Assembly: GCF_000970025.1 (NCBI RefSeq)
Contig: NZ_CP009528.1
Coordinates: 2,715,168 to 2,779,167 of the forward strand
Direction of reading: 5' to 3'
From: Methanosarcina barkeri MS
GTDB lineage: Archaea > Halobacteriota > Methanosarcinia > Methanosarcinales > Methanosarcinaceae
Length of the DNA stretch: 64,000 nucleotides
The position numbers and the translations under genes were made by a program. Each line of letters starts with the position of its first letter. The first letter of the stretch is position 1. The notes beneath the pieces were generated by a model. It was not told where the DNA came from and searched no databases. It saw only the letters and a list, made by a program, of their open reading frames with translations. This document shows positions 37,013 through 58,432 of the stretch, piece by piece.

Positions 37013-37198
37013 ATAGATCTATAGATTATATAGAGCGCTCGAAAATATATGGAAACTATAAAATATAATGAAATGGTCTGAAATACAATACAGACTCGAA
37101 ATCAAGAGAAGTGTTCAGGAATTAATGAAAATAATAAATCTTTGACTAATGAAATAGATAAACTTATTATAAAAACTAAAAATTGGAGTTTACAGACT

Positions 37199-38337
37199 TA
37201 GGAGTTACGCAGTTGGCTCCTAGCATATTGTTTTTTCCAAACTTTCAAATATTTGAATTAATTTAACGTGTATTGGGGATTCCTTAAGTATTCTGTCACT
37301 GCCACTCTTCTAATTTTCATAGCACTTTCAAACCAGGATATTCCACTTTTGATTCTTTGTAATTCCAGTCTAAGAAAAGCTCTTAATGAGAACATTATAT
37401 GTGCTCTTTGTGATTCTTCCTTTCTTGCCTGACATTTTTCGACACCACAGAACTGTTTTATTCCCCTATGATATTCCTCAATTTTCCATGACTTCTTTGC
37501 CAAATCTTCACGTTTTGCTTCATCCATCTCTTGCACATCTGTAACCCAGTGTTGCGTGTCTCCATTTTTTGAAACTATCCTAAACACCTTTACAAATCCA
37601 TATGCTTTGAGGTGAACCACACGTCCTTTTGGAGGAATATCTACTGTTTCAAGTGGCACATTTCCCTTGTTGTCAGGATTTACCAAACGATTATTTTTCA
37701 ATCTTGTAAGGAAATGCCACTCTTTCTGTCTAATGGCTTTAAGGTTTTTCACACTTGCATACCATGTATCAAATAAAACGAATTTGGGATTAAAACCACG
37801 TTCTTCGGCCTTGTCAAGCATATCACGGAAATGGTCATTCTTTGTTTTGTCGTCTACATCGATGTTATAAATTCGAAAATCGATAGGTATAACGGTTGTA
37901 CCGTCAGTCCAAACTAAAGTAACCAGGCCTATTCCCTTTACAGTACGATGATGTTTTCCACTCCACATACGACGAACAAAAGCAATTTCTTCTGCGTATG
38001 GTTTATCTAATGTTGAATCATCAACAATTAGGTATCCTCCCTTAAGCTTGACATAACTTTTTACTTCCTCCCATAGTGCTTCCGTGTCTGGAGGTTGCCT
38101 TTGAAGGCAACGAGTAAAAGCATCATGAGAAGGAGCATTAGCTATGTCTGGATAACATCTAGCAGCTTCAGTACAGCTAAAAACGTTAGAAGCCGCAATG
38201 AGAAAATTAATGTAGTCAATGTCGGTACACTTAGGTGGATTTATGTCCATAACTCCGTACGTTTTTAGAGAAACACTAAGCCATAAGTATATTTATAAAG
38301 ATATCAAGTTTTCGGCATTTTAACTGCGTAAGTCCTA
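37199..38337 (-). mobile_element. IS4/IS701-like insertion sequence, copy 1
   Basis: 1139 bp. The ends are TAGGAGTTACGCAGTT and, inverted, TAGGACTTACGCAGTT (15/16). A 5-bp direct repeat AGACT flanks it (37194-37198 and 38338-38342), the target duplication. One transposase gene reads leftwards. The right end lies 58 bp upstream of the phosphate transporter start, so the element has split that gene's control region. Confidence 0.95.
37258..38250 (-). CDS. IS4/IS701-like transposase, copy 1
   Basis: 330 residues, DDE type: Asp in YLIVDDSTLDKPY, Asp in KFVLFDTWYAS and Glu in WKIEEYHRGIKQFCG, the last followed by CQARKEESQRAHI, typical of this group. The protein is identical to that of the copy at 57 kb. 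Frame intact, so the element is probably active. Confidence 0.95.
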   Translation of the reverse strand: MDINPPKCTDIDYINFLIAASNVFSCTEAARCYPDIANAPSHDAFTRCLQRQPPDTEALWEEVKSYVKLKGGYLIVDDSTLDKPYAEEIAFVRRMWSGKHHRTVKGIGLVTLVWTDGTTVIPIDFRIYNIDVDDKTKNDHFRDMLDKAEERGFNPKFVLFDTWYASVKNLKAIRQKEWHFLTRLKNNRLVNPDNKGNVPLETVDIPPKGRVVHLKAYGFVKVFRIVSKNGDTQHWVTDVQEMDEAKREDLAKKSWKIEEYHRGIKQFCGVEKCQARKEESQRAHIMFSLRAFLRLELQRIKSGISWFESAMKIRRVAVTEYLRNPQYTLN

Positions 38338-46471: not shown

Positions 46472-46739
46472 GATTTTAAAAGCTAATTTGAGATCCTCTT
46501 TTAAGGCACGCTCTAAGGGCATAATATATTTATATGTTGTTTATATATAATATTAGGGGAGGTCTATTAATACGGTATTCTGGTTTAAAAATAAAAAATG
46601 ATCACTTTAGCTGTGTCAAATAGATGAGAGTTTACTCAGCGTTGCTATGATTTTTTTTCAGTAACTGACTTTTCAGACCTTCAAAATATAAAAACAGTTA
46701 CTAAATACGAAAACAAGCAATGATATAACAGGTGATTAT

Positions 46740-46916
46740 ATGGGAGAAACGGAAGCATCTAAAATAACGGAAGTATCTAAAGTTATTGAGGCGTTTGATC
46801 CACAGATCGTAGCTTCAGCAGTAACGGAGAATTTACCAGAAGTTAGTAGAGCGTTACGTGCCGCTACAAACAACAATAACAACAATAATAAGAAAGCTAT
46901 GGAGCAAGTAGAGTAA
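46740..46916 (+). CDS. 58-residue peptide, candidate RiPP precursor
   Basis: ATG 46740 with AGGTGA 4 nt upstream. MGETEASKITEVSKVIEAFD ... TENLPEVSRALRAAT, then seven consecutive Asn, then KKAMEQVE. The N-terminal ~40 residues look helical and leader-like. The low-complexity Asn7 segment is a possible modified core. It lies 317 bp before a radical SAM enzyme with a PqqD-like domain in the same direction. Role as substrate is inferred from context alone. Coding by AAC/AAT repeats allows length change. Confidence 0.6.
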   Translation: MGETEASKITEVSKVIEAFDPQIVASAVTENLPEVSRALRAATNNNNNNNKKAMEQVE

Positions 46917-47233
46917 AGAGTCTGAATATTATTCGCATGTTTAATAAGTTAGTGCCCATGAGTTATTGGTCAATTACGAAAAATCAAATACTTCCCGCGT
47001 GTTCGTGAAAATAAAGTGAGATCCTTAAGCTCACAGTTTTCAGTAACTCATATACGCTAGCTTAAACTGCGATTTATATTTTTTAATATTTTGGTTTTAA
47101 AATTGGATTTTATTCCAAAATGAAAGTATTAACTCTAAATTATTCGCAAAGCAATGAGTGTATTTAAATACACATTAAATATAGCACGATAATATATTAC
47201 AAACAGAATATAACAAATTTGGTTGCGGATTCC
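46917..47233. other. Spacer between peptide and radical SAM genes
   Basis: 317 bp, AT-rich. A weak dyad GTGAG/CTCAC (47016-47034) followed by AGTTTT could attenuate or end the peptide transcript. No gene is seen. Confidence 0.35.
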
Positions 47234-49411
47234 ATGAAAACTGTTCTTATTTTCCCACCACAATGGTCGCCATTACAACCTTATTTAAGTATACCATCCT
47301 TATCTGCTTATCTTGAAATGCATGGATATTCTGTAGTGCAAAAGGATTTGAATATAGAATCATATGACATTTTTTTGTCTCCTGAACACATTCTATCAAT
47401 GAAACAAAAAATTAAGGAAAGATTTGAATTATTAGATAACAAGGAACGACTATCTGTAAAAGAGCAAGAAAAGTTTGTTGCTTTTTTTATGGGTATGTCC
47501 AAGGCGTCTCGTATTCACGAATGTATATCAGAAGCAATGACATTAATTAAAAATGAAGATAATTTCTATAATATTAATGACTACAACAAAAGTATGAATA
47601 CAATCAATGAGGCGCTTTCAATAACCTCACTTGCGTATTTTCCGACAAATCTCTCTCTATTTTCTTTTACTATTGATAATTTTGATTATTCAATATCGGA
47701 ATTATTTAAGGCAACAATAGACGAGGAAATTAATCCATATATTCAAATTTATAAAGATAATCTTCTAAAACCAATAGTAAACCTAAAACCTGATCTGGTT
47801 TGTATCTCGATTATAGGTACAGAACAAATAATTCCAGGGTTAACTATTGCACGTTTATTGAAATTAGAAACAGATTCCCACATTAATATTGGTGGAAGTA
47901 TCTTTAGTCGTCTAGTGGATGTTTTACTTTCAAGAAAAGAATTATTTACAACATTTTTTGATAGCGTAATAACATTGGAGGGTGAAAAACCTCTTCTTGA
48001 ACTTGTAAAACATATAGAAAACAAGAAAGATCTTAAATCGGTTCCAAATTTAATTTTTTTGGATGGAGAAAGCGTATGTAAGACAGACATAAGTAGGCCA
48101 GAAAGAATTGATAACTTACCTACGCCTAGCTTTGAAGGATTCCCTTTGGATAAATATTTATCTCCTCTTCTGGTTTTACCATATCTGTCAAGTAGAGGCT
48201 GTTATTTTAATAAATGTGCTTTCTGTGATCACTCATATATTTATGGAAATCGTTATGATCCCAGAGACATTAAAAAAGTTGTAGATGATCTAAACAAATT
48301 AACAAATAAATATGGATGTCATCACTTTACATTCTCTGATGAATGTATCTCGCCATCTAGGTTTGATAAATTGTCAGATGAACTTATAAACACTAAATCC
48401 ACAATTTTTGCGAATGCTGACATAAGGTTCGAAAAAGGATTTACATCCGAATTATGTAATAAAATATACAATTCTGGATTTAGGGTTTTCTATATCGGCA
48501 TGGAATCCGCCAATAATAGAGTTCTTAGTTTCATGAATAAGGGAATAGATAAAGATTCGATTCTTAATATAATTTCAAATAGCTCTAGTGCAGGTATTTG
48601 GAATCATGTTTTTTATTTCTTAGGATTCCCTACAGAAACCGAAACTGAAGCAGAAGAAACTCTAGATATATTGATTTCTAAAAAAGATCAAATCCACTCA
48701 TCTGGTGGTTCAACTTTTCTATTAGGGAAAGATTCCAAAGTTGCACACAATCCCAAAAAATATTCAGTCAAAAATATTAAGATTGACCAAAAAAAAGATC
48801 TCGAATTATGGTACAATTACGACATTGATGTAGGCCTATCAAATGAAATGGCTCAAAGATTATTATCCAGCTTCAAGGAGCAAATCGAAAAAGATAATTG
48901 CGATTATTGTTGGAGTTCTATTCCACGTGAACATTTGCTAATCTATTTGTCACGATATAGAGTTTCAGATCTGAAAGATATGATTAAGATTCCATATATT
49001 AAACAAGACCCTAGAATATATTATAATGACTATTTGAATGATAATGCGATATTATATATGCATAAACATTTAGCAGTTCATACTATTAATTTTGATATAA
49101 CAGAATTAATAAACAATAAATTTAACTCGCCAATAGTATCGGAACTTACAAATGTTGTATACAATGAAAAAAGTAAAAAAATTTTTAAAATAAATAATTC
49201 CGCAAAAAAAGTGATTGATTTACTTGATAACGTAAATACTGTGGGAGATGTAATAAACAAAATAGCTATAAATTATGGAATTTCTCTTAAAGAGGCTAGA
49301 ATAAAATGTAACAGATTATTTACAGAATTGTTAAACAATGATATAGTTGGAATTGCGAATTCTACCGGCTCGATTCCAAGGCTCGATCCTACTTTCGGCA
49401 GGTCTACATAA
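47234..49411 (+). CDS. B12-binding radical SAM enzyme with C-terminal PqqD-like domain
   Basis: 725 residues from ATG 47234; the frame is open to a TTG at 47219. Cobalamin-binding-like N-terminal domain (TVLIFPPQWSPLQPYLSIPS; PDLVCISIIG; INIGGS). Radical SAM core with CYFNKCAFC (about 323-331), FSDE and FYIGMESANNRVL. A helical linker follows, then a PqqD/RRE-like winged helix at about 640-707 (KIFKINNSAKKVIDLLDNVN, then TVGDVINKIA, and LFTELLNNDIV). RRE domains bind RiPP leader peptides, so it probably modifies a peptide, plausibly the one encoded upstream. The last ~9 codons lie in an inverted-repeat arm, so the original C-terminus may be lost. Confidence 0.85.
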   Translation: MKTVLIFPPQWSPLQPYLSIPSLSAYLEMHGYSVVQKDLNIESYDIFLSPEHILSMKQKIKERFELLDNKERLSVKEQEKFVAFFMGMSKASRIHECISEAMTLIKNEDNFYNINDYNKSMNTINEALSITSLAYFPTNLSLFSFTIDNFDYSISELFKATIDEEINPYIQIYKDNLLKPIVNLKPDLVCISIIGTEQIIPGLTIARLLKLETDSHINIGGSIFSRLVDVLLSRKELFTTFFDSVITLEGEKPLLELVKHIENKKDLKSVPNLIFLDGESVCKTDISRPERIDNLPTPSFEGFPLDKYLSPLLVLPYLSSRGCYFNKCAFCDHSYIYGNRYDPRDIKKVVDDLNKLTNKYGCHHFTFSDECISPSRFDKLSDELINTKSTIFANADIRFEKGFTSELCNKIYNSGFRVFYIGMESANNRVLSFMNKGIDKDSILNIISNSSSAGIWNHVFYFLGFPTETETEAEETLDILISKKDQIHSSGGSTFLLGKDSKVAHNPKKYSVKNIKIDQKKDLELWYNYDIDVGLSNEMAQRLLSSFKEQIEKDNCDYCWSSIPREHLLIYLSRYRVSDLKDMIKIPYIKQDPRIYYNDYLNDNAILYMHKHLAVHTINFDITELINNKFNSPIVSELTNVVYNEKSKKIFKINNSAKKVIDLLDNVNTVGDVINKIAINYGISLKEARIKCNRLFTELLNNDIVGIANSTGSIPRLDPTFGRST

Positions 49412-56946: not shown

Positions 56947-58085
56947 TAGGACTTACGCAGTTAAAATGCCGAAAACTTGATATCTTTATAAATATACTTA
57001 TGGCTTAGTGTTTCTCTAAAAACGTACGGAGTTATGGACATAAATCCACCTAAGTGTACCGACATTGACTACATTAATTTTCTCATTGCGGCTTCTAACG
57101 TTTTTAGCTGTACTGAAGCTGCTAGATGTTATCCAGACATAGCTAATGCTCCTTCTCATGATGCTTTTACTCGTTGCCTTCAAAGGCAACCTCCAGACAC
57201 GGAAGCACTATGGGAGGAAGTAAAAAGTTATGTCAAGCTTAAGGGAGGATACCTAATTGTTGATGATTCAACATTAGATAAACCATACGCAGAAGAAATT
57301 GCTTTTGTTCGTCGTATGTGGAGTGGAAAACATCATCGTACTGTAAAGGGAATAGGCCTGGTTACCTTAGTTTGGACTGACGGTACAACCGTTATACCTA
57401 TCGATTTTCGAATTTATAACATCGATGTAGACGACAAAACAAAGAATGACCATTTCCGTGATATGCTTGACAAGGCCGAAGAACGTGGTTTTAATCCCAA
57501 ATTCGTTTTATTTGATACATGGTATGCAAGTGTGAAAAACCTTAAAGCCATTAGACAGAAAGAGTGGCATTTCCTTACAAGATTGAAAAATAATCGTTTG
57601 GTAAATCCTGACAACAAGGGAAATGTGCCACTTGAAACAGTAGATATTCCTCCAAAAGGACGTGTGGTTCACCTCAAAGCATATGGATTTGTAAAGGTGT
57701 TTAGGATAGTTTCAAAAAATGGAGACACGCAACACTGGGTTACAGATGTGCAAGAGATGGATGAAGCAAAACGTGAAGATTTGGCAAAGAAGTCATGGAA
57801 AATTGAGGAATATCATAGGGGAATAAAACAGTTCTGTGGTGTCGAAAAATGTCAGGCAAGAAAGGAAGAATCACAAAGAGCACATATAATGTTCTCATTA
57901 AGAGCTTTTCTTAGACTGGAATTACAAAGAATCAAAAGTGGAATATCCTGGTTTGAAAGTGCTATGAAAATTAGAAGAGTGGCAGTGACAGAATACTTAA
58001 GGAATCCCCAATACACGTTAAATTAATTCAAATATTTGAAAGTTTGGAAAAAACAATATGCTAGGAGCCAACTGCGTAACTCCTA
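56947..58085 (+). mobile_element. IS4/IS701-like insertion sequence, copy 2
   Basis: 1139 bp, same length, ends and transposase as copy 1 but in reverse orientation. Target duplication AGTTA (56942-56946 and 58086-58090), different from copy 1, so each arose by its own insertion. Confidence 0.95.
57034..58026 (+). CDS. IS4/IS701-like transposase, copy 2
   Basis: 330 residues, identical to the transposase at 37258-38250, with the same DDE residues (VDDSTL, LFDTWY, IEEYHRG). Intact, hence a likely source or product of recent transposition. Confidence 0.95.
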   Translation: MDINPPKCTDIDYINFLIAASNVFSCTEAARCYPDIANAPSHDAFTRCLQRQPPDTEALWEEVKSYVKLKGGYLIVDDSTLDKPYAEEIAFVRRMWSGKHHRTVKGIGLVTLVWTDGTTVIPIDFRIYNIDVDDKTKNDHFRDMLDKAEERGFNPKFVLFDTWYASVKNLKAIRQKEWHFLTRLKNNRLVNPDNKGNVPLETVDIPPKGRVVHLKAYGFVKVFRIVSKNGDTQHWVTDVQEMDEAKREDLAKKSWKIEEYHRGIKQFCGVEKCQARKEESQRAHIMFSLRAFLRLELQRIKSGISWFESAMKIRRVAVTEYLRNPQYTLN

Positions 58086-58432
58086 AGTTATTTTTTTCGT
58101 TGAATTTCAAAAGCAGAGGAGTGAATAAATAATTTTATAAATTGCCAGTAAGAGAGGTTTTTAAAGCGATTTTTCTTTATGTTAGTGAATTCTCTCATAC
58201 TTTTCTATTTTTGCTTCTATGAACTTCTCTGTGACTTCTGTCTTCAGTCTCTCCAGGGCCCTCTAGGTTGGTGATGCCCATAGTCTCTAGTAGCTTAGTT
58301 TATCCTTTAAGGCTTAAAACTCACTGTTCTGATTTTTTTAATTTACTTGGCCAACTTTTTATATACAGCAAAACATTGTAAAAATAACCGCAGTGTAAAT
58401 GCGGAGACGTAAAATCAAGTGGGGAGTTTAGA
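58086..58432. other. Intergenic region with a possible 3' gene remnant
   Basis: On the minus strand about 58255-58180 reads RALERLKTEVTEKFIEAKIE then KYERIH and stop, a helical tail with an upstream in-frame UAG and no start. A small CCGCA/TGCGG hairpin lies near 58388-58404, before the zinc-ribbon gene. Confidence 0.3.

Follow-up and report, generated by a model that had tools for sequence, protein, structure and literature searches.

An asparagine-rich peptide gene beside a B12-type radical SAM enzyme with a C-terminal RRE/PqqD domain: a candidate minimal RiPP-type locus in Methanosarcina barkeri MS

The locus described here lies in a stretch of 64,000 nucleotides of Methanosarcina barkeri MS (contig NZ_CP009528.1; hereafter the window), and all positions are those of the window unless another locus is named. 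It consists of a small peptide gene followed, in the same direction, by the gene of a large radical SAM enzyme. The following features were assigned:

46680..46695, + strand: BRE/TATA-like, A/T-rich putative promoter element ttcaaaatataaaaac, matched by eye
46729..46736, + strand: ribosome-binding site of the peptide gene, around AGGTGATT, from the anti-SD duplex
46740..46916, + strand: candidate precursor peptide gene, 58 aa, MGETEASKITEVSKVIEAFDPQIVASAVTENLPEVSRALRAATNNNNNNNKKAMEQVE, from the ORF, ribosome site, codon score and a distant counterpart at the locus L039
46869..46889, + strand: Asn7 stretch in mixed AAC/AAT codons, presumed core, judging from the sequence
47234..49411, + strand: B12-type radical SAM enzyme with C-terminal RRE/PqqD domain, 725 aa, from Pfam, NCBIfam, homologues, and AF2 with Foldseek
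48200..48226, + strand: cluster motif CYFNKCAFC (CX4CX2C), residues 323-331, the Cys residues being invariant in two homologue alignments
49049..49357, + strand: RRE/PqqD winged-helix domain, residues 606-708, from PF05402, a separate model and PDB matches

The original prediction had described a 58-residue gene with a good ribosome site, and such a gene is present at 46740-46916. Its AGGTGAT site pairs with the anti-SD sequence at -8.8 kcal/mol, and the promoter-like element lies about 45-60 bases 5' of its start. Between 46200 and 50000, no other ORF of 20-130 aa on either strand is preceded by a strong ribosome site. The encoded peptide is composed of leader-like residues 1-43, the Asn7 run at residues 44-50 and the tail KKAMEQVE. 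Its codon score is within the range of the long genes of the window and is matched by 6 of the 232 mechanically listed ORFs of 40-80 aa. A chance ORF was considered as a reading of the 58-aa gene and was dropped in view of the ribosome site, the codon score and the L039 counterpart. Compared with precursor families, the peptide gave no Pfam match and no NCBIfam match above its cut-off, and a search with the peptide alone in 60 relatives returned nothing but the window peptide itself.

The enzyme gene begins 317 bases 3' of the peptide gene, at a weak start region of its own. The best start is the ATG at 47234, which is in line with the N-termini of homologues; the mechanical list had the TTG at 47219. 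The codon score of the gene is lower than that of host genes. The Radical_SAM domain (PF04055) scored 51.7 bits against a cut-off of 29.5, and the CX4CX2C spacing of the cluster motif is common to this enzyme and OxsB. The B12-binding domain (PF02310) scored weakly, with 18.3 bits against 32.1; the homologue L043 reached 32.5 bits. The AF2 model of the full enzyme (pLDDT 78.5) was matched by Foldseek to TsrM, OxsB, MgmA and CysS. At the family level the enzyme is a B12 radical SAM enzyme, as first proposed, and its activity and use of cobalamin are predicted.

The PqqD-like segment noted at the C-terminus was also confirmed. PF05402 matched residues 641-705 with 26.9 bits against a cut-off of 23.4, and the domain was above the Pfam cut-off in four of the five homologues tested, the highest score being that of L039 (39.0 bits); the copy in G021, a genome of the same genus, was below it. 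Modelled separately with AF2, the C-terminal domain gave a winged helix composed of a beta-sheet and three helices (pLDDT 84.5). Its top PDB matches were TbiB1 with leader peptide (TMt 0.80), TglHI, lasso B1 with leader, and PqqD, with a best E of 1.1e-3, and several of these RRE structures were solved with leader peptides. The modelled domain has the RRE fold, and leader binding by it is predicted. The same fold is found in stand-alone PqqD and in the lasso B1/TbiB1 RREs, whereas here it is fused to a B12 radical SAM core.

A transposase remnant lies 5' of the pair, and a Usp gene and an enolase gene lie 3'. The original prediction had seen no transporter or protease nearby. There is indeed neither an exporter nor a protease among the genes that flank the locus, and transporter-like genes (ABC ATPase, EamA) come no closer than about 5 kb, past the enolase gene and on the opposite strand. 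RiPP clusters can do without a dedicated exporter or protease. The region that bears the locus is flanked by an inverted pair of DDE_Tnp_1 insertion sequences at 37196-38337 and 56947-58088, the two copies being 1142 bp each and different at one base.

The enzyme was compared with known B12 radical SAM families. ApyD of aminopyruvatide biosynthesis is an RRE-containing B12 radical SAM enzyme that carries out C-beta methylation of a precursor peptide (PMC11117315). The window enzyme likewise combines a B12 radical SAM core with an RRE domain and has a small peptide as its putative partner; however, it scored 81.9 bits against the cut-off of 750 for NF050148, and ApyD modifies Tyr and belongs to a bacterial multi-enzyme cluster. 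The rSAM_ocin_1 family (TIGR03975) consists of B12 radical SAM peptide C-methyltransferases, to which the window enzyme can be aligned over 317 residues, but with 82.4 bits against a cut-off of 281.85, and the peptide matches no precursor family tested. MgmA (TIGR04014, PDB 9ccb), the glutamine C-methyltransferase of MCR, is related in fold and sequence, but the score was 67.1 bits against 360, and MgmA is shorter (450 aa) and alignable with the core alone. Membership in rSAM_ocin_1, PhpK, ApyD and MgmA was dropped because all scores were far below the cut-offs. With ApyD there is already a known B12 radical SAM C-beta methylase that bears an RRE; what is unusual here is the presumed substrate and the host.

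The contig search of genomes with the single enzyme sequence found no relatives, and the alignment-based search found 80 loci with enzyme homologues. The viral contigs searched held no close relatives, and the plasmids searched held only distant radical SAM proteins of less than 30% identity. The enzyme was found in 2 of 31 sampled genomes of the window's genus. This sporadic occurrence, together with the transposase remnant just upstream, suggests that the enzyme was gained horizontally by the host. In the tree of the enzyme, the PqqD-bearing proteins split into two branches, one with the Methanoperedens proteins and that of G021 (support 91/85), the other with the window enzyme, L039 and the Chloroflexota proteins (91/96). 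The window and G021 proteins form long branches.

In the Methanoperedenaceae, whose Candidatus Methanoperedens falls in the same order as the host, the homologue is linked to the genes of methyl-coenzyme M reductase (MCR). Upstream DNA of over 1.1 kb was available at 15 loci, and in 13 of these mcrA lies directly 5' of the homologue. The PqqD-bearing B12 radical SAM gene stands directly 3' of mcrG-mcrA at L050:4686-10160, at L051:4748-10157 and at 11 more Methanoperedenaceae loci. These enzymes share the B12 radical SAM/PqqD architecture and about 37% identity with the window enzyme; they differ in lying 3' of mcrGA without a peptide gene of this kind, and in belonging to another clade. In several Methanoperedens contigs (L057:10595-11123, L042:3970-4275, L086:10807-11109) we also observed small proteins with the shared start MVGxESxMxxAExAKKVKKPEV, encoded 3' of the enzyme in convergent orientation, either alone or fused to a desulforedoxin-like domain.

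In MCR from two ANME-2d enrichments, His159 of the gamma chain is present as 3(S)-methylhistidine and methylglutamine is absent, whereas ANME-2c MCR carries methylglutamine instead; the study describes the methylhistidine as the first of its kind in a natural protein, and its authors expect chemistry like that of a radical SAM methylase and name no enzyme (PMC12413448). Strain BLZ2 is one of the two organisms examined there. In this strain the mcr-linked gene follows shortly after mcrG-mcrA (L050:8001-10160), and residue 159 of its McrG is His. The MgmA family had no match above its cut-off in the Methanoperedens genomes tested. The link to the mcr genes makes the Methanoperedens homologue a strong candidate for the C-beta methylation of His159, and on the basis of gene position and family we propose it as the methyltransferase concerned. 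The mcr-linked members also suggest that C-beta methylation is what the subfamily does by default.

In the Chloroflexota (the order of G425), most homologues lie a few kb from genes of 470-525 aa that have a Tat signal and are labelled rdhA-like on the basis of motif and size. PqqD-bearing B12 radical SAM genes near such genes were seen at L154, L156-L161 and L163-L165, and no peptide gene of the window's kind was seen at these loci. A single Chloroflexota genome can hold up to five copies of the enzyme gene (G687). Nitrospira, Nitrospina and anammox bacteria have shorter relatives without the PqqD domain, which stand in tandem pairs in several genomes, among them those of the Nitrospina and Nitrospira loci L065, L070, L085, L092 and L099. 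In a Melainabacteria genome, a 56-aa ORF with the end GNGNGNGNN (L088:5211-5381) lies about 2 kb 5' of another relative without the domain.

The closest relative of the enzyme found is that of L039, from a Dehalococcoidia bacterium, with 44% identity over the full length of 711 residues. Directly 5' of it is a co-directional gene for an Asn-rich peptide of 63 aa (L039:7667-7858) with a near-perfect ribosome site (-16.9 kcal/mol), the gene order being peptide, strong hairpin, enzyme. The L039 peptide, MVMRKRGVGSAEVRKAVEALKVFAPAVLKEAIGAIPGMEAMLAAANNINGGQNNILQPEKKEG, is built on the plan of the window peptide, its Asn-rich end AAANNINGGQNN standing beside AATNNNNNNN of the window. The similarity of the two peptides is weak (phmmer E 0.33); the match ranked 2nd among 11102 small ORFs, and 10th when the Asn run was masked. 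Equal Asn-richness was found in just 7 of the 11102 small ORFs across all loci. A peptide profile run against 156 Chloroflexota and 150 relatives returned the window and L039 peptides only, plus a weak match (E 0.0145) inside a 376-aa frame. The pairing of a precursor gene with an RRE-bearing enzyme thus held when a similar peptide was sought beside enzyme homologues, but it recurs in one further genome only. We conclude with moderate confidence that the window and L039 peptides belong to one precursor family.

A different arrangement was found in G021. Here the homologue is part of an operon, with the gene of a QhpD/SCIFF-like SPASM maturase on one side of it and a further B12 radical SAM gene on the other. 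Where the operon ends, the opposite strand encodes a precursor of the Os1348/NHLP clan (57.2 bits against a cut-off of 40). The region L035:6124-11662 is recognisable as an archaeal RiPP-type cluster, with the NHLP-clan precursor, two B12 radical SAM enzymes and the SPASM maturase.

We propose, with a probability of about 0.6, that the window holds a minimal two-gene RiPP-type locus, in which the RRE domain would dock the peptide and the enzyme would modify its Asn-rich tail, most likely by C-methylation. The 58-aa peptide would be the precursor and its N-terminal two-thirds the leader, which the C-terminal RRE/PqqD domain would take up as an additional strand of its beta-sheet. Catalysis would then fall to the B12 radical SAM core, with the Asn-rich C-terminal tail as its target; the most likely reaction is methyl transfer from methylcobalamin onto an unactivated carbon. 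The C-beta of Asn is our first guess because of ApyD and the mcr-linked homologues. Genes for processing or export, if any, would lie elsewhere in the genome. This proposal is based on the RRE/PqqD domain, which exceeds its cut-off here as well as in four of the five homologues tested, the structural matches to RRE-leader complexes, the B12 radical SAM fold, the strong ribosome site and gene-like codons of the peptide gene, the L039 pair and the G021 cluster.

Several facts count against this proposal. The similarity to the L039 peptide is weak, and only two such peptides were seen in about 300 further genomes. The gap of 317 bases and the enzyme's own weak start region leave co-transcription putative. 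No exporter or protease is adjacent, and no modified product is known. Moreover, most PqqD-bearing relatives have mcrGA or rdhA-like genes as neighbours and no peptide of this kind, and for this reason the RRE domain alone is no proof of a RiPP. The RiPP reading of the original prediction is therefore supported in its parts, that is, the RRE domain, the B12 radical SAM core and the pairing, while a protein target is a possible alternative.

Such a target is the main rival explanation, and we consider it unlikely: the enzyme would act on a large protein, for example McrG, as its Methanoperedens relative probably does, and the 58-aa gene would be an unrelated neighbour. The host belongs to a methanogen order, mcrA is directly 5' of the homologue in 13 of 15 Methanoperedenaceae loci, and the C-beta-methylated His159 of ANME-2d MCR gamma has no known enzyme (PMC12413448). 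The window enzyme, however, clusters with the Chloroflexota enzymes (91/96, long branch) outside the mcr-linked clade, and its presence in 2 of 31 genomes of the genus is unlike a housekeeping MCR modifier. Its closest match comes with a peptide gene from a Dehalococcoidia bacterium, which should be without MCR. It is quite improbable that the pair is a decayed or transferred remnant, horizontally gained, whose product is no longer made. The sporadic distribution, the transposase remnant and insertion sequences nearby, the long branch, the low codon score of the enzyme and the lack of an adjacent exporter or protease would fit a remnant, but both frames are open, the cluster Cys residues and the RRE domain are intact, and the peptide gene has a good ribosome site and codon use.

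It is also conceivable, if somewhat unlikely, that the peptide is the substrate but undergoes other chemistry (formation of a C-C or C-S bond, ring contraction, epimerisation) or is modified at a site other than Asn. Among enzymes of solved structure, the one closest in sequence is OxsB, which is not a methylase, and a literature search for methylasparagine together with radical SAM enzymes found nothing relevant and no precedent for modification of an Asn run. The nearest functional annotations (PhpK, rSAM_ocin_1, ApyD, MgmA), however, are mostly methyltransferases, and C-beta methylation is what the mcr-linked relatives suggest.

The enzyme subfamily is not confined to RiPPs. A two-gene RiPP-type locus of the kind proposed here, if correct, would add to the archaea a peptide-maturation system with an unseen substrate, the Asn run. 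It would also define a subfamily, with a B12 radical SAM core and a C-terminal RRE, whose members stand beside RiPP precursors, mcr genes and rdhA-like genes. In its broadest form, which is rather unlikely to hold in full, the proposal would be a new class of archaeal RiPPs whose Asn run is C-beta-methylated by an RRE-fused B12 radical SAM enzyme, while the same subfamily acts on MCR gamma His159 in anaerobic methanotrophs, one lineage having moved between the maturation of peptide products and that of a core metabolic enzyme. The mcr-linked members are a testable candidate for the enzyme behind the 3(S)-methylhistidine of ANME-2d MCR.
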